A program made the position numbers and the translations under genes. From assembly GCA_021818865.1 (NCBI GenBank), contig JAKASX010000030.1, positions 1-36,705 on the forward strand: a stretch of DNA of 36,705 nucleotides, given 5' to 3'. The DNA is from Acidobacteriota bacterium. GTDB lineage: Bacteria; Acidobacteriota; Terriglobia; Acidiferrales; UBA7541. The notes under the pieces are model-generated. The model saw only the letters and a program-made list of their open reading frames with translations, searched no databases and had not been told where the DNA came from. This document shows, piece after piece, positions 14,306-36,705 of the stretch (position 1 is the first letter of the stretch; each line of letters opens with the position of its first letter).

Positions 14306-17300
14306 ATGGCGCCCACCGATCCGCTGATTGGCCAGACCGTCGCCCATTACCGCATCCTCGAACGGATCGGCGGCGGCGGAATGGGTGTTGTTTACGCGGC
14401 GGAGGATTTGAACCTGGGGCGCCGCGTGGCGTTGAAATTCCTTCCACCTGAACTCGAACGCAATCCGCACGCGCTCGAGCGATTCCGCCGCGAAGCGCGC
14501 GCCGCCAGCGCGCTGAACCATCCCAACATCTGCACCATCCACGACATCGCCCAGCACGAAGGCCGGTACTTCATCGCGATGGAATATCTGGAGGGCCAGA
14601 CGCTGAAGCACCGCATCGCGGGCCGTCCGCTGCCGCTCGGGCTGTTTTTCTCCCTGGGAATCGAAATCGCCGACGCGCTCGACGCCGCGCACGAAAAAGG
14701 CATCATCCATCGCGACATCAAACCGGCGAATATTTTCGTGACGACGCGCGGGCACGCGAAAATCCTCGATTTCGGCTTGGCCAAACAGATCGGGCGCGAT
14801 TCGCAGCTCACCGCCGGCCTGACACAAGGCGCCACGGCGGGCGTGACGATCGAGAACGACCAACTGACCAGCCCCGGCTCGGCGCTGGGAACCGTGGCGT
14901 ACATGTCGCCCGAGCAGGCGCGCGGCGAAACGCTCGATGCGCGCAGCGACCTTTTCAGCTTCGGCGCGGTGCTCTACGAAATGGCCACGGGCGCGCTGCC
15001 GTTTCCCGGCGACACGAATGCGGTGGTTTTCGCGGCGATTCTCGAAAAACAGCCAGTGCCGCCGTCCCGGCTGAATCCGGAAATTCCGGCGAAGCTCCAG
15101 GAGATCATCGAAAAGGCAACCGAGAAGGATCGCGACCTCCGTTACCACCACGCCGCCGATATTCGCACCGACCTGCAACGATTGAAGCGCGATACGGAAG
15201 CCGGGCGAACGTTGTCCACGCAAGCGGCCGATGCGGTCACTTCGCCGAGCGCCGGTTTCCCCGGGGCGAGCGCGACCACACCATCGGCGGGCGTAACGCC
15301 GGCCGTTGGCACGACGCCGGCCGTCGGAATCACGCCGGCTGTCGGAACCACTCCGGCTGGGGGAACGACGCCAGTTGTGACGGCTGCGACGGCGGGAGCA
15401 AAACGGCGCTGGCCCTTGCTGGCGGGAGCGGTCGTGCTGGCGGCAATTGCTGCCGGTGCGTATTTTTATCTGAATCGCGGGCCGAAATTGACATCCAAGG
15501 ACACAATCGTTCTCGCCGATTTTTCCAACACCACCGGCGATTCGGTTTTCGACGGTACGCTGCGGCAGGCGCTTTCGGCGGAACTCGCACAATCGCCATT
15601 CCTGAACATTCTGACGAACCGGAAGATGGAGCAGACGCTCCGCTACATGGCGCTGCCTCCGACCACGAAAGTGACGCAAGCCGTCGCGGAACAGATTTGC
15701 GAGCGCACCGGAAGCGTCGCTGTGCTGGACGGCTCGATCGCGCAGATCGGCAGCCAGTACGACATGATCCTCACCGTGCGGAATTGCGCCACAGGCGACC
15801 GGCTGGCGGCCGTGGAGGCCGTTGCGCCGGACAAAAACAGCGTTCTCGATACGCTGGGCAAACTGGCTTCGCAGGTTCGCGGCAAGTTGGGCGAGTCGCT
15901 GGCGTCCATCCAAAAATTCGACACGCCGATCGAGCAGGCGACCACATCTTCGCTTGAGGCGCTGAAGATTTACACGCAGGCGGATCTGAAATCCGACAGC
16001 GAGGGCAACGTCGCTGCGATTCCGTTGTATAAACAGGCGATCGCACTCGATCCCGATTTCGCGCTCGCCTATCAGGCGCTGGGCACTGGATACGCCGACA
16101 TCAGCGAGAATCAGCTGGCCGCCGAATATCTCACAAAGGCTTTCCAGTTGCGCGACCGCGTGAGCGAACTGGAGAAGTTTCACATCGAATCGTTGTATTA
16201 CCTGACTGCCAATGGAGATCTGGCCAAGGGCGAACAGACTCTCGAACTGTGGGAGCAGACTTATCCGCGCGACTACATACCGAGAGTAGATCTGGGACAG
16301 GTCTACAGCTTCCGCGGACAGTACGACAAAGTTGTAGCAACCACTCTTGCTGCGGTCGCTCTTGAACCCAACGACGCCACTTCGCGTTCGAATCTGGCGG
16401 GCGCGTACATGGCCATGGGTCGGCTCGGCGATGCGAAGGAGCAGCTTGACGAGGCGCGCAAACGCCACCTTGGCTTCTTCCTTTTGCATCTCCAGGCCTA
16501 CCAACTCGCCTTTCTCGAAAACGATGCTGCCGGAATGCAAAAAGCGGCAAGCGAGTTGATCGGAAAGCCGGGCGAGGAAGACTGGATGTTCGACGCCGAG
16601 GCGAACACCGCGGCGTACGGCGGCGAGTTCGCCAAGGCGCACGAATTAACGCAAAAGGCTGTCGCCTCGGCCGTCGCCAGCGGCAATAAGGAAACCGCGG
16701 CCGTTTGGCAACTGGATGAAGCGTTGCGCGAGGTGGAATTCGGAGACACGGCAGCGGCGCAGCACGACGCGCAGGCGGCGCTCGCACTCGCCTCGGGACG
16801 ATTCGAGCAGGCCGTGGCTGCGCTCATTTTCGCACGCGCAGGCGATGCGGCGCGGGCGAAGACGACGGCCGCCGCGCTTGCCAAAGCCCACCCCGACGAC
16901 ACCATTCTCAACAACTACTGGATTTCCTCGATTCATGCGGCAATCGCGCTCGACCAGAAGAATCCAGCCAAGGCCATGGATGCACTTGCGGCCGCCCAGC
17001 CTTACGAACTCGGCGGCGAGCCACCGTTCCAGGGCGGGCTTATGTACCCGGTCTACCTACGAGGGCTGGCGTACCTGCAACTGCACGAGGGACAGCAAGC
17101 TGCGGCGGAATTCCAGAAAATCGTCGCGCATCCCGGCTTTACCATCAACGAGCCGATTGGCGCGTTGGCGCAACTTGATCTGGCGCGCGCGCAGGCGATG
17201 GTTGGCGATGCGAGTGCGGCGCGTGCTTCGTATGAGAAATTCCTCGCGCTGTGGCAGCGCGCGGACCCCTCCCAGAACGTTCTGAAGCAAGCCAAATCCG

Positions 17301-17320
17301 AATACGCGAAATTGGGGTAA
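14306..17320 (+). CDS. Transmembrane Ser/Thr protein kinase with TPR-type extracytoplasmic domain
   Basis: The protein has 1004 residues. The kinase domain (about 15-295) is complete: glycine loop [10 protein letters not shown], Lys44 in VALKFL, alphaC Glu63, catalytic Asp137, Lys139 and Asn142 in [11 protein letters not shown] with Asp155, and SPE in the activation segment. A Pro/Thr-rich juxtamembrane linker (about 325-360) contains repeats of GTTPAV. One transmembrane helix (about 370-389) follows. The outer part starts with [20 protein letters not shown], a TolB/FlgO-like fold seen in acidobacterial kinases. It then carries TPR-like helices to the end, such as [20 protein letters not shown] and [14 protein letters not shown]. 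It likely senses a periplasmic ligand or protein and signals by phosphorylation inside. It is divergent from the amidase gene. Confidence 0.93.
15296..15385 (+). repeat. 18-bp tandem repeat in the kinase linker, five units
   Basis: Units start at 15296, 15314, 15332, 15350 and 15368. The first three follow the pattern ACGCCGGCCGTCGGAAYC, the fourth differs at several positions and the fifth is degenerate. Each unit encodes six residues of the type TPAVGT, forming the flexible linker before the membrane helix. Copy number changes would alter linker length without breaking the frame. Confidence 0.8.
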
Positions 17321-30668: not shown

Positions 30669-33242
30669 ATGGATTCACTTCTCGGACAGACCATTTCCCA
30701 TTACCGTATTCTTGCCCCGCTGGGTGGCCAGGAAGGCGTCTACGTAGGCAAAGACACACAGTCGGGGCGACCTGTCTTCATAAGGTTTTTCCCGAAGGGA
30801 TGGGGCGATCCCGAGTCGCTCGCCAAACTCCGGCATCTGGCGCGAACCGTTACGGGCTTGAATTACCGTCACATTCTGGCTGCGTCGGATTTCGGCGAGC
30901 GCAACGGACGACTGTACAGCGTGACCGAGCTGCAGGACGCGGAAACGCTGCGCGAGCGCATCGCCGGACGCTCGATTCGCTTTACCGACCTGCTCGATCT
31001 GGGCGCGCAAATCGCGAGCGCGCTCGATGCGGCGCATTCCGAGGGCGTGGTGCACGGAGCGCTGCAGCCGATCGACGTCTGGGTGACGCGGCAGGGCGAA
31101 ACCCGCGTGACGGAATTCGGCTTGTACGAGTTGCTGCCGGCAGCGAGCCGCGTGGGCTGGGGCGCGGACAGCTACCTTTCGCCGGAACAGGTGCGAGGCA
31201 AGGCGGCCGATGCGCGAAGCGACCTTTTCGCGCTGGGCGCGATCCTGCATGAAATGGCGACGGGACAGCCGGCGTTTCAAGGACCGGATGCCGCGGCGAT
31301 CCATCAGGCGATTCTGGAGTCCGATCCCGCGCCGCCGTCGGCGGGCAGCTCGACGCTGCCGGCGATGTTCGATTCGATCGTCGTGAGGGCGCTGGCGAAG
31401 AATCCGGACGAGCGGTATCAGACGGCGGCGGATCTGGAAATGGATTTGCGCCGGCTGCTGCGGGAATGGGAATCGGAACGCATCGCGGCGACGCGGGCGG
31501 CGCTGGCCGAGCCCGGTGCGACGCAGTCTCGCGATGCGCAAGAAGGGACGGGCGGCGCGCCGAAACGATCGAAGGGCCGGCTGGCGATGATGCTGGTGAC
31601 CGCGCTGCTGTTGGCAGCGGCAGGCGGCGCGATCGCGGTGCGGATGATGCGGCATTCGGCAACGTCGCTGCCGGCGGTGTTTCACCGGCTGACGTTTCGC
31701 CGCGGCACGATCGAAACGGCGCGCTTCGCGCCGGATGGACACACGATCTATTACAGCGCCGCATGGGACGGCCAGCCGCCGCAGATTTTTTCGGTGCGGC
31801 CGGAATCGCCGGAATCGAAGCCGCTCGGCGTGAGCGACGCGGTCATTTTGGGCATCTCTCCCGCGGGCGAATTGGCGATTCTGGCGGGCGTGCACGATTC
31901 CGGAATGGGAGAAAGAGAAGGCGAACTAGAAAGCGTGACGGCGGCTGGCGGCGTGCCGGAAACCATCCTGAAGAACGCCGAGGACGCCGATTGGTCGCCT
32001 ATCGGCAAGGGCATCGCCATTGTGCGACGAGTGGACGGACGCGACCGGCTGGAATATCCGATTGGGACGGTGCTGGCGGAGACGAGCGGCGCGATTGGCG
32101 ACGTGCGGTTTTCTCCGAATGGCAGCCGAATCGCATTCGTCGAGCGGCCGGAGGCCGGGAGCGCGGCCGGCACACTGGACATGGTTGACGTGAAGGGCGG
32201 ACGAGAGACGCTTTCGCGGGACTGGGCGAGCCTCGACGGACTGGCGTGGTCGCCGGACGGCAAGCAGGTGTGGTTTACCGCAGCGCGGCACGCAGGACAG
32301 CAAGTTTACGTGGTAGACCTTTCCAGACAGCTACGCCAAGTGGCGGCGATGGCCGGTTCGTTGCGCTTGGAGGACATCGCCGCGGACGGGCGGATGCTGC
32401 TGGTGCGCGACGACGTGCGGCGCGGAATGATCGAGGCGGAACGCGGGCAGAACAACGAACAGAACATTTCCTGGCTCGACGGTTCCAAGCTGAGCGATCT
32501 TTCCGCCGACGGCAAAACCGTGCTATTCGATGAAGCGGGCGAGGCCGGCGGCGTGGAACAGGCGATTTACGTTCGCCTGATCGGCGGCGGCGACCCGACG
32601 CGGCTGGCAGCGGGACGCGCGCTCGCGCTTTCTCCCGACGGGAAACAGGTGCTGGCGGAATCGCCGGGACCGAACCGGAATTTGATGGTGCTGCCGGCGG
32701 GAGCGGGCGCGGCATTGAATTTGCCGGAGGTCCCGGTGAGCCACCGCTGGGCGGCGTGGTTGCCGGATGGTAAGCGATTCGTCTTTCTGGGGCGGGAGCC
32801 GGGGCAGGGATTGCGATTGTTCGTCGAAAACGCGGCCGGCGGCTTGCCGCGCGCGTTCAGTCCGGCGGGACTGGGCGGCTCGGCGGCGCTTTCGCCGGAT
32901 GGAAGCCGAGTGGCGGCGATGGGGCCCGACGGCAAAGGGTACCTCTATCCGATTGACGGCGGCGCGGTGCCGACGTTTCCCGGACTGACGCCGGCGGATA
33001 CGATCGTAGGCTGGAGCCGCGACGGCTTGGCGATCTACGTGGCGGAGGGAACGCTGCCGGTGAACGTCTTCCGGATGAGCCTCTCCAGCGGACGTAAAAC
33101 GCCGCTGTGGCAATTGGCGCCGACGGATACTGCGGGCGTCACGCATCTGGATGCGATCCGGGTGACTCCGGATGGAAAATTCTGCGCATATTCCTATCGC
33201 CGAACCTTTTCCTACCTTTACCTCGCCCAAGGTTTGCAGTAG
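30669..33242 (+). CDS. Transmembrane pseudokinase with TolB/WD40-type beta-propeller
   Basis: The protein has 857 residues. The N-terminal domain (about 10-265) aligns throughout with the kinase at 14306-17320 (SHYRILAPLGG, ALDAAHSEG, YLSPEQVRGKAADARSDLFALG, ILHEMATG). Every catalytic position is altered. The glycine loop is degenerate (LGGQEGVYVG). The ATP lysine is Arg39 (FIRFFP), the alphaC Glu is Leu57, HRDIKPAN reads HGALQPID (129-136), and DFG is EFG (149-151). The frame is intact and the fold landmarks are kept, so this is a pseudokinase rather than a decayed gene. A transmembrane helix (about 305-325) is followed by a periplasmic propeller with blades such as ARFAPDGHTIYYSA, VRFSPNGSRIAFVE, LAWSPDGKQVWFTA and AALSPDGSRVAAMG. 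It presumably transmits a signal by binding rather than phosphorylation. Confidence 0.92.
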   Translation: MDSLLGQTISHYRILAPLGGQEGVYVGKDTQSGRPVFIRFFPKGWGDPESLAKLRHLARTVTGLNYRHILAASDFGERNGRLYSVTELQDAETLRERIAGRSIRFTDLLDLGAQIASALDAAHSEGVVHGALQPIDVWVTRQGETRVTEFGLYELLPAASRVGWGADSYLSPEQVRGKAADARSDLFALGAILHEMATGQPAFQGPDAAAIHQAILESDPAPPSAGSSTLPAMFDSIVVRALAKNPDERYQTAADLEMDLRRLLREWESERIAATRAALAEPGATQSRDAQEGTGGAPKRSKGRLAMMLVTALLLAAAGGAIAVRMMRHSATSLPAVFHRLTFRRGTIETARFAPDGHTIYYSAAWDGQPPQIFSVRPESPESKPLGVSDAVILGISPAGELAILAGVHDSGMGEREGELESVTAAGGVPETILKNAEDADWSPIGKGIAIVRRVDGRDRLEYPIGTVLAETSGAIGDVRFSPNGSRIAFVERPEAGSAAGTLDMVDVKGGRETLSRDWASLDGLAWSPDGKQVWFTAARHAGQQVYVVDLSRQLRQVAAMAGSLRLEDIAADGRMLLVRDDVRRGMIEAERGQNNEQNISWLDGSKLSDLSADGKTVLFDEAGEAGGVEQAIYVRLIGGGDPTRLAAGRALALSPDGKQVLAESPGPNRNLMVLPAGAGAALNLPEVPVSHRWAAWLPDGKRFVFLGREPGQGLRLFVENAAGGLPRAFSPAGLGGSAALSPDGSRVAAMGPDGKGYLYPIDGGAVPTFPGLTPADTIVGWSRDGLAIYVAEGTLPVNVFRMSLSSGRKTPLWQLAPTDTAGVTHLDAIRVTPDGKFCAYSYRRTFSYLYLAQGLQ

Positions 33243-33467: not shown

Positions 33468-34475
33468 ATGCGGGCATACGAGTTGCACGACTTCGCGATC
33501 GAGCAATTGAGGATCGCGGAACGGCCCGATCCGAAGCCGGGTTCGGGGCAGGTGGTGATGGGAGTGCGCGCGGTTGCGCTGAATTTCCGCGATACGCTCG
33601 TCGCGAAAGGCCTCTACAGCCGCAAGCTTCGGTTGCCGCTCGTGCCTTGCTCGGATGCCGCGGGGGAAGTGATCGCAGTGGGCGAGGGCGTGAAACGACT
33701 GCGCGTGGGCGACCGCGTGGCGGCGAATTTCATGACGGGTTGGATCGAAGGCGAACTGGACGAAGCGAAGGCGCGGACGGCACTGGGCGCGGCCGTGCCG
33801 GGCGTGCTGGCCGAGCAGGTGGTTTTCGCGCAGGAATCGCTGGTGCGGATACCGGACTCGCTGTCGTTTGAGGAAGCCTCGACGCTTCCCTGCACCGGTG
33901 TCACCGCGTGGAACGCGCTGATGGTTTCCGGCCGGCTGCGGCCGGGGGAAACGGTGCTGGTGCAAGGGACGGGCGGCGTATCGATTTTCGCGCTCCAATT
34001 GGCACGGATGGCCGGCGCGTTCGTGATCGCGACATCGTCGAGCGACGCGAAACTCGAGCGGGCGCGCGAACTGGGCGCGGCCATCGGCATCAATTACAAG
34101 ACCACGCTCGATTGGGGCGAAAAGGCGCTGGAACTGACGGCGCGGCGTGGCGTGGATCACGTTGTGGAAGTCGGTGGAGCGGAAACGCTGCCGCAATCGG
34201 CGCGCGCGGCGCGTTTTGGCGGACACATCGCGCTCGTCGGAAACCTGACCGGCCGCGGTGGCGTGGACTTGGTGCCTGTGTTCATGAAGGCGCTGCGCGT
34301 GAACGGCATTTTCGTCGGTTCGCGGGCGATGTTCGAAGACCTGAATCGCGCGGCGGCTCACGCGGGACTGCGGCCGGTGGTCGATCGCGTGTTCCCGTTC
34401 GAGGAGGCGGTCGAAGCGCTGCGCTACATGGAAAGCGGGGCGCATTTCGGCAAGATCGTGATCCGCGTGGGATAA
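33468..34475 (+). CDS. Zinc-free MDR-family NAD(P)-dependent oxidoreductase
   Basis: The protein has 335 residues. The medium-chain dehydrogenase layout is clear: substrate lobe with VRAVALNFRDTLVAKGLY and PLVPCSDAAGEVIAVGEGV, then the Rossmann motif VLVQGTGGVSIFALQLARMAG (about 164-184), and a C-terminal FEEAVEALRYMESGAHFGKI. It lacks the four structural zinc cysteines of alcohol dehydrogenases and is closer to enoyl or quinone reductases. AAGGAGGGACGC precedes ATG 33468. The stop lies 32 bp before the old-yellow-enzyme gene, whose own ribosome site is in the gap, so the two are probably one operon for reducing unsaturated carbonyls. Confidence 0.93.
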   Translation: MRAYELHDFAIEQLRIAERPDPKPGSGQVVMGVRAVALNFRDTLVAKGLYSRKLRLPLVPCSDAAGEVIAVGEGVKRLRVGDRVAANFMTGWIEGELDEAKARTALGAAVPGVLAEQVVFAQESLVRIPDSLSFEEASTLPCTGVTAWNALMVSGRLRPGETVLVQGTGGVSIFALQLARMAGAFVIATSSSDAKLERARELGAAIGINYKTTLDWGEKALELTARRGVDHVVEVGGAETLPQSARAARFGGHIALVGNLTGRGGVDLVPVFMKALRVNGIFVGSRAMFEDLNRAAAHAGLRPVVDRVFPFEEAVEALRYMESGAHFGKIVIRVG

Positions 34476-35630: not shown

Positions 35631-36705
35631 TCAGCGGGCAGCGGCGACGGGCACCGGACGATCGGTCGCGCCCATCAGCACGCCATCGCAATAGACCAGG
35701 AATTTTCCGGAAAGCGAAGGCACGCGTTCCCCGGGCAGAAGAATGCCGACAAGATTCAGCGGGTCGGCCGCGGAAACGGTGGCGATCTCTCTCGTATTGG
35801 GTTCCGTACGCGAAGCACGAAGGGATTCGACGGCGAGCGGCAAAGCGAATTGCTCGCCGAGGAAACCGTCAACGAAACGCCCGCCGCGGATTTCGCCGCG
35901 ATCCTCCAAACGGCGAAGGGCGATGAGCATTTCGCGCCACGGCGGCAGAATGTTTTCGCGCTCCGTCAGTTCCCGAAAGATCACGCCATAACGATCGAGC
36001 AGCATCCGGCAAGCCAATTCCACGGCTTTCGCGCGTTCGGCCGTGGCGCCGAATTCAAGGACCGACCACCGGCCGGTGCTGTGCCGCGGACGCAAGGCGC
36101 GGGAGCGGCCGATGCCGGCGCGGCGGCGTGGATCGAGCAAGGCGCGGAGATTATCGAAATCATCTGCGGTGACGCGGCCGGCGGCGACGAGTTCCCACAG
36201 AGCGGTTTCCACTTCGGCCTTCAGGCGGCCCGAGCCGCGAACGATATCGGCGAAAAAGCTGGCGCCGCGGCGCTCGAGCCACGCAAGGACGTCTCGCGCG
36301 GCGTGGTTCAGCCCCGCGGCGGAATGGACGGCGCCTGCGGCGAGCGCGAGCCAATCGGACTCTTCACGCAAAAAGAGGGCTATTGGAGCGACGCTGGTGG
36401 GCGCGACGCGGCGGGCCGACGAGCCCGCTTCGATCGTCGCCGGATGCGGCCTGAGCCTGCCCCATCCGGCTACACCGCTCAGACACAACGTATCGAGGAG
36501 TTTCGGATCGTAGCCCTGGATGCGGCGCGGCAGAATCTGCGATTCCCAGGCGCTCGCCGGCGCTTCGAATCCCTGCAACTGGCGCAGAACTTCGATCATG
36601 CCGCGTTCGCCCGATTGCTGCGTTCCGGGCGCGACGTGCTGCCAGCGGCAGAGCCAGCGCAAAAATTGCGCGGGACTCACCGGCTCGATTTCGCGGCGCA
36701 GACGC
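35631..36705 (-). CDS. lhr: Lhr-type DNA/RNA helicase, C-terminal part (runs off the right edge)
   Basis: The last 357 residues are present. The frame is open through the window edge, so the GTG at 36680 is internal. It begins with RLRREIEPVSPAQFLRWLCR and continues with WQHVAPGTQ, VLRQLQGFEAPASAWESQIL, then LCLSGVAGWGRL. That is the winged-helix and accessory region that follows the helicase core in large helicase-related (Lhr) proteins. The end includes a Lhr-C type domain (RYGVIFRELTERENILPPWREML and GRFVDGFLGEQFALPLAVE). The DEAD-box motor domains are outside the window. Lhr is a 3'-5' superfamily 2 helicase linked to DNA repair. It is convergent with the old-yellow-enzyme gene. Confidence 0.88.
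   Translation of the reverse strand, partial: RLRREIEPVSPAQFLRWLCRWQHVAPGTQQSGERGMIEVLRQLQGFEAPASAWESQILPRRIQGYDPKLLDTLCLSGVAGWGRLRPHPATIEAGSSARRVAPTSVAPIALFLREESDWLALAAGAVHSAAGLNHAARDVLAWLERRGASFFADIVRGSGRLKAEVETALWELVAAGRVTADDFDNLRALLDPRRRAGIGRSRALRPRHSTGRWSVLEFGATAERAKAVELACRMLLDRYGVIFRELTERENILPPWREMLIALRRLEDRGEIRGGRFVDGFLGEQFALPLAVESLRASRTEPNTREIATVSAADPLNLVGILLPGERVPSLSGKFLVYCDGVLMGATDRPVPVAAAR

Follow-up and report, generated by a model that had tools for sequence, protein, structure and literature searches.

Locus and Domain Organization

The window (the whole stretch of DNA that was analyzed, 36,705 nucleotides) belongs to a genome referred to here as G000; G001–G004 are four other genomes of the same uncultured acidobacterial genus. 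At 30669–33242 the plus strand is open for 857 aa, so that the full-length frame described in the initial annotation is indeed kept, and the reverse strand read in frame contains several stops. The features of this gene and of its downstream neighbor are the following.

30669..33242, + strand: pseudokinase receptor gene, 857 aa plus stop (open frame; Pkinase and PD40 matches; orthologues in G001, G002 and G003)
30669..30707, + strand: N-terminal tail, residues 1-13 (MDSLLGQTISHYR), where conservation among the pseudokinase orthologues is highest
30696..31457, + strand: kinase-fold domain, PknB-like, predicted to be cytoplasmic, residues 10-263 (sequence matches; AlphaFold2 from pseudokinase rows)
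30720..30743, + strand: degenerate glycine loop, residues 18-25, two residues short in the alignment
30762..30764, + strand: Ser32 at the position of PknB Leu33 (back-to-back dimer), a serine in 4/4 orthologues and a leucine in 35/35 active relatives
30783..30785, + strand: Arg39 where the ATP-binding beta3 lysine would be; the G001 orthologue keeps Lys
30837..30839, + strand: Leu57 in place of the alphaC glutamate, which is absent in all four orthologues
31053..31076, + strand: HGALQPID in place of HRDxKPxN, residues 129-136; HG[AG]LxP in all four orthologues
31113..31187, + strand: activation segment, shortened by length comparison, EFG (149-151) to SPE (171-173)
31581..31655, + strand: transmembrane helix, residues 305-329 (Kyte-Doolittle peak and model helix)
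31677..33239, + strand: TolB/PD40 propeller region, probably periplasmic, residues 337-857 (PD40 and TolB matches; confident all-beta model)
33468..34475, + strand: zinc-type alcohol dehydrogenase/quinone oxidoreductase, context only; also follows the pseudokinase in G001 and G002

The Pfam Pkinase model matches residues 24-252 of the product with 72 bits (cut-off 31.7), and PD40 repeats occupy its C-terminal half. By sequence search, the best solved relative of the first half is PknB of M. tuberculosis (7.5e-37) and that of the second half is TolB (1.4e-10). Hydropathy peaks at 2.26 (Kyte-Doolittle, residues 306-324) directly after a basic KRSKGR, and this basic N-side of the helix, read by the positive-inside rule, suggests that the kinase fold is cytoplasmic and the propeller lies outside. 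With an N-terminal kinase fold, one transmembrane (TM) helix and a C-terminal propeller, the protein has the architecture of propeller-type receptor kinases in its predicted orientation.

Structure prediction, a check proposed in the initial annotation, returned the kinase fold. The full-length AlphaFold2 model (mean pLDDT 86) shows a kinase-like part followed by a helix (305-329) and then an all-beta region (337-854), in which about 45 strands suggest a propeller of roughly 11–12 blades. A fold search with this model gave a match list filled by kinases. When only the four pseudokinase rows were supplied, the model retained the secondary structure of a kinase (pLDDT 70.5, pTM 0.68) and matched PknA and PknB at Z 22-24; it is least confident in the activation segment and the loop that follows alphaC. 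The Hanks-type (PknB-like) fold is thus recovered over the whole domain by profile, sequence and structure matches alike. Neither EssB nor MviN figures in the top fold matches listed.

In G001 and G002 the pseudokinase is followed by dehydrogenase, FMN-oxidoreductase and helicase genes, and in G003 it is the genes of the opposite flank that correspond; this shared order supports orthology. In G004 a DsrE-like gene and the dehydrogenase stand 142 bp apart with the pseudokinase missing between them, and the same DsrE-like gene lies upstream of the pseudokinase in G002. The gene is therefore dispensable, as a member of the same genus has the locus without it. Trees of the alcohol dehydrogenase and the helicase did not fix the position of G004, and so leave gain of the gene and loss in G004 both standing. 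An operon with the dehydrogenase was considered and appears weak, given a 226-bp gap and a SCO1-like gene inserted in G002. The window's intact kinase (14306-17320, + strand) is a TPR kinase without a propeller by Pfam; it lies 13 kb away, and its orthologue is near the pseudokinase only in the sister species G003. No other kinase gene occurs in the stretches retrieved around the G001 and G002 orthologues. Separately, the helicase-like coding end at 35634-36704 (- strand) is duplicated at 94% identity close to the start of a different contig of the assembly (G000:C24:1240-2310), which perhaps reflects strain variation.

Loss of the Catalytic Machinery

All of the substitutions named in the initial annotation (Arg39, Leu57, HGALQPID, EFG and a broken glycine loop) are present in the alignment. 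Three further changes can be added: the alanine of VAIK is Phe37, the dimer-position leucine is Ser32, and the activation segment is about half-length, with 22 residues from the Asp position to SPE where the window's intact kinase has 46 (22, 24, 18 and 22 residues in the four orthologues). The four residues expected of an active Ser/Thr kinase, namely beta3 Lys, alphaC Glu, HRD Asp and DFG Asp, are here Arg, Leu, Ala and Glu. The fold motifs, as also claimed, are retained: besides the Pkinase match, the window copy keeps His129, Phe150-Gly151, Pro134, SPE (171-173), Asp185 and Arg249, and the structural residues E173, D185 and R249 are invariant among the pseudokinase orthologues.

Across G000/G001/G002/G003, the HRD Asp reads A/G/G/A, the alphaC Glu L/T/L/L, the beta3 Lys R/K/R/R and the DFG Asp E/G/D/E (motif variants EFG/GFG/DLG). 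Loss of every catalytic residue, the original claim, therefore holds for the window copy but not for the family, since G001 still has the beta3 Lys, and G002 both the DFG Asp and the catalytic-loop Asn. The shared core of the loss is the HRD Asp and the alphaC Glu, and the rest is variable. With canonical residues lost, and their loss conserved in four orthologues, the protein is a pseudokinase by the sequence definition. Some inactive-looking kinases still bind ATP. Catalysis by this domain is very unlikely, because the orthologues share no conserved set of polar active-site residues.

Orthologues and Origin

Orthologues were found in three of the four other genomes of the genus, at 54% (G001), 53% (G002) and 88% identity (G003, over 274 residues, the gene being cut by a contig end). 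All four proteins lack the HRD Arg, the HRD Asp, the alphaC Glu and two glycine-loop residues, and they have the deletions in the glycine loop and the activation segment in common. In the other full-length relatives examined (about 35) the motifs are intact, and so they are in the 35 other complete kinase domains of the window's genome, where the pseudokinase is the only gene of its kind. The pattern is more than chance, being common to four orthologues from separate assemblies and absent from all of the ~35 full-length relatives; a recent local loss or a sequencing error is ruled out, as the same pattern recurs in four species assembled separately. The core losses are thus conserved across at least four species of the genus. 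The objection foreseen in the initial annotation, that close relatives might keep Lys, HRD and DFG, does not fully apply, as the closest relatives are without HRD, the alphaC Glu and the glycine loop. Among the matches listed from 95 genomes of the order there are no orthologues outside the genus, a search that weak cases could escape.

In trees of the kinase half and of the propeller half, the pseudokinases form one clade (support 100/99) nested among active kinases. This placement indicates that the pseudokinase derives from an active propeller-type receptor Ser/Thr kinase, with an ancestral loss of the catalytic machinery.

Other unusual kinases were seen in the course of the survey. An acidobacterial TPR kinase-fold protein (L013:3304-5865, + strand) has HGALTPTS for HRDxKPxN and lacks the alphaC Glu, with DFG kept. 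A common origin with the window's protein is ruled out, as it carries TPRs and falls elsewhere in the tree, outside the window's clade; HGAL-type loss therefore seems to have had more than one origin. Two neighboring kinases (L034:5824-6828 and L034:6570-7982, + strand) have HGD for HRD, the Arg being lost and the catalytic Asp kept. One kinase gene of the window's genome (G000:C139:37967-38646, in L187) is split over two frames of 186 and 382 residues, possibly by a frameshift or an assembly error.

Selection and Residual Constraint

We took dN/dS from the G000–G003 comparison, as values against G001 and G002 were near saturation and were left out. The kinase core of the pseudokinase has a dN/dS of 0.19 (bootstrap range 0.11-0.28), well under 1 and the second highest of 23 kinase-core orthologue pairs (median near 0.08). 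The kinase is normally the slower-evolving half in active relatives: the ratio of minus log identity, kinase to propeller, has a median of 0.49 over 496 active pairs (5-95% range 0.29-0.99), as against 1.17-1.45 in pseudokinase pairs. Correspondingly, the kinase tree gives a G000–G001 path length of 2.23 and the propeller tree one of 0.77. The highest active-pair ratios involve apparent kinase-propeller swaps. Two proteins of G057 (L142:5528-8188 and L142:11181-13838, + strand) join the propeller of one clade to the kinase domain of another, and therefore point to kinase-propeller domain swapping in the family.

Invariant positions were compared between two trios of the same genus, one of pseudokinases and one of active kinases, with like propeller conservation (0.47 and 0.46, respectively). 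The invariant fraction falls from 1.00 in the active trio to 0.09 in the pseudokinase trio for alphaC, from 0.74 to 0.09 for the activation segment and from 0.86 to 0.29 for the glycine loop; it rises from 0.54 to 0.85 for the first 13 residues. Conservation of the N-terminal tail and the post-kinase segment is at least that of active kinases. The kinase domain is relaxed where catalysis needs constraint, but it is not free; from these alignments, the parts still under constraint are the N-terminal tail, the C-lobe core, HG[AG]LxP and the propeller.

A decaying pseudogene is ruled out by the dN/dS of 0.19 and the open frames; about half of the kinase residues have changed, yet the frame is full in all three complete orthologues. 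Relaxed selection along the gene, which had been named as a possible refutation, is found in the kinase half, which diverges faster than the propeller and has a dN/dS of 0.19 against ~0.08, but that half is not decaying and the gene as a whole is not relaxed. The central proposal of an old, apparently non-catalytic kinase fold on a membrane propeller protein, under purifying selection, is upheld.

Interpretation

Since the enzyme machinery has been lost in at least four species while the gene is intact and under selection, the protein probably acts by binding rather than by phosphorylating. We judge it reasonably probable that it is a genus-level non-catalytic membrane receptor or tether whose kinase fold serves as a binding or docking module; a docking role is favored by where constraint is left, as described above. 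In such a receptor, the propeller outside the inner membrane would bind a ligand, the single helix would cross the membrane, and the cytoplasmic fold, transferring no phosphate, may dock or tether a partner through the N-terminal tail, the C-lobe core around alphaE/alphaF and the post-kinase segment. Against this, no partner, ligand or operon points to a function, the gene is dispensable, the Lys-to-Arg and Asp-to-Glu changes are conservative, and the faster divergence of the kinase half would fit a mere vestigial tether too. A more specific form, in which a lineage-specific receptor passes a propeller-gated signal through a kinase fold rewired for docking, catalysis and the back-to-back dimer interface having been given up, is a tentative possibility.

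The kinase half could instead be a vestige, with the propeller alone working as a membrane-anchored periplasmic binding protein and the fold kept since misfolding is harmful. The kinase half does diverge 1.2-1.45 times as fast as the propeller where the active-pair median is 0.49, alphaC and the activation segment are each 9% invariant where an active trio with equal propeller divergence has 100% and 74%, and the residues replacing the active site differ between orthologues. We nevertheless think a vestige rather unlikely, in view of the full frames maintained through the turnover of kinase residues, the dN/dS of 0.19, and the conservation of the tail and the post-kinase segment, which does not fall below that of active kinases. 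Residual enzyme activity, as a weak kinase or through other chemistry as in SelO or SidJ, might be read into the conservative Arg39 and Glu149, the Lys kept in G001 and the DFG Asp kept in G002; we regard it as highly improbable, as no polar active-site set is conserved in the four orthologues.

The initial annotation had further suggested that the protein pairs with an active kinase such as the one in the window, and this part found no support. Mixed dimers with an active receptor kinase, activating or inhibiting it allosterically, could draw on the facts that bacterial PknB-type receptor kinases dimerize, that about 35 active kinases are available in the genome, and that the equivalent of PknB Asp76 is kept as Asp or Glu. 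However, the PknB Leu33 position, which we take to have a role in the back-to-back dimer and which is the site altered in the solved PknB mutants L33D and L33E (by their structure titles), is Leu in all 35 active relatives compared and Ser in all four pseudokinases. The constraint on alphaC is nearly lost, and a conserved kinase neighbor is absent from the stretches retrieved around the G001 and G002 orthologues. Canonical back-to-back pairing is disfavored by the Leu-to-Ser change and the lack of a conserved kinase neighbor, and mixed dimers in general seem improbable.

Relation to Known Systems

Bacterial pseudokinases, described in the initial annotation as rare, are experimentally largely unstudied, but in genomes they are not rare: five of 42 bacterial STK families consist entirely of pseudokinases (PMC12599244). 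The same paper lists seven bacterial families rich in pseudokinases and mentions neither Acidobacteriota nor propellers; our literature search for propeller kinases in Acidobacteriota returned nothing relevant. The present case extends the set of known bacterial pseudokinases in a sound but modest way and leaves the general picture unchanged. Its value is that the loss of catalysis has a definable place in a tree, that the same genomes contain active sisters and that one species lacks the gene at this locus; the constraint left on a dead kinase can thus be followed from one position to the next. If a propeller-gated docking receptor is the true reading, it would be a prokaryotic parallel to the receptor pseudokinases of animals and plants.

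Compared with family descriptions, the pseudokinase fits none of ActPs2, ActPs3/MviN, GLW, DYD, CP1 and DLHK. ActPs1 resembles it in having all three catalytic residues substituted, and many ActPs1 members carry a C-terminal "PQQ 2" domain (presumably a propeller repeat in Pfam naming), for which the Pfam scan of the 857-aa protein gave no match; ActPs1 is actinobacterial and about 60% lack helix G, which is predicted here at residues 208-217. The beta3 Lys-to-Arg change of ActPs2 fits Arg39, but that family has Asn for the HRD Asp and a long activation-loop insertion, where the window's protein has Ala and a shortened segment. ActPs3/MviN has Leu for the HRD His (Lsidhpsr type) and DFG deleted, in contrast to HGALQPID and EFG; it shares an activation-loop deletion with the short segment seen here, and MviN keeps the back-to-back dimer, the leucine of which is lost in the window's protein. 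GLW members have GLW for HRD and Leu or Trp for the beta3 Lys (here HGA and Arg). DYD members share the Lys-to-Arg change and the absence of the alphaC Glu, but have DYD where the orthologues have EFG, GFG or DLG, and CP1 and DLHK lack a TM region and have COG3899 or helicase partner domains instead of a helix at 305-329 and a propeller. EssB/YukC is likewise a transmembrane pseudokinase with a degraded glycine loop and an attenuated activation loop (PMC12599244), but it belongs to type VII secretion in Firmicutes and has no propeller.

The closest parallels in architecture are active kinases. PknD of M. tuberculosis has a cytoplasmic kinase fold, one TM helix and an extracytoplasmic, six-bladed beta-propeller (PMC3601408); it differs in being active, and the window's protein has a PD40/TolB-type propeller that is much longer, at about 520 residues. 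The same genomes also encode active PD40-propeller kinases, for example G001 C142 and G012 C11, which have the same full-length architecture at 43% identity, with all catalytic motifs intact. In architecture, the pseudokinase is an inactive equivalent of PknD-like propeller receptor kinases and of its own active paralogues.
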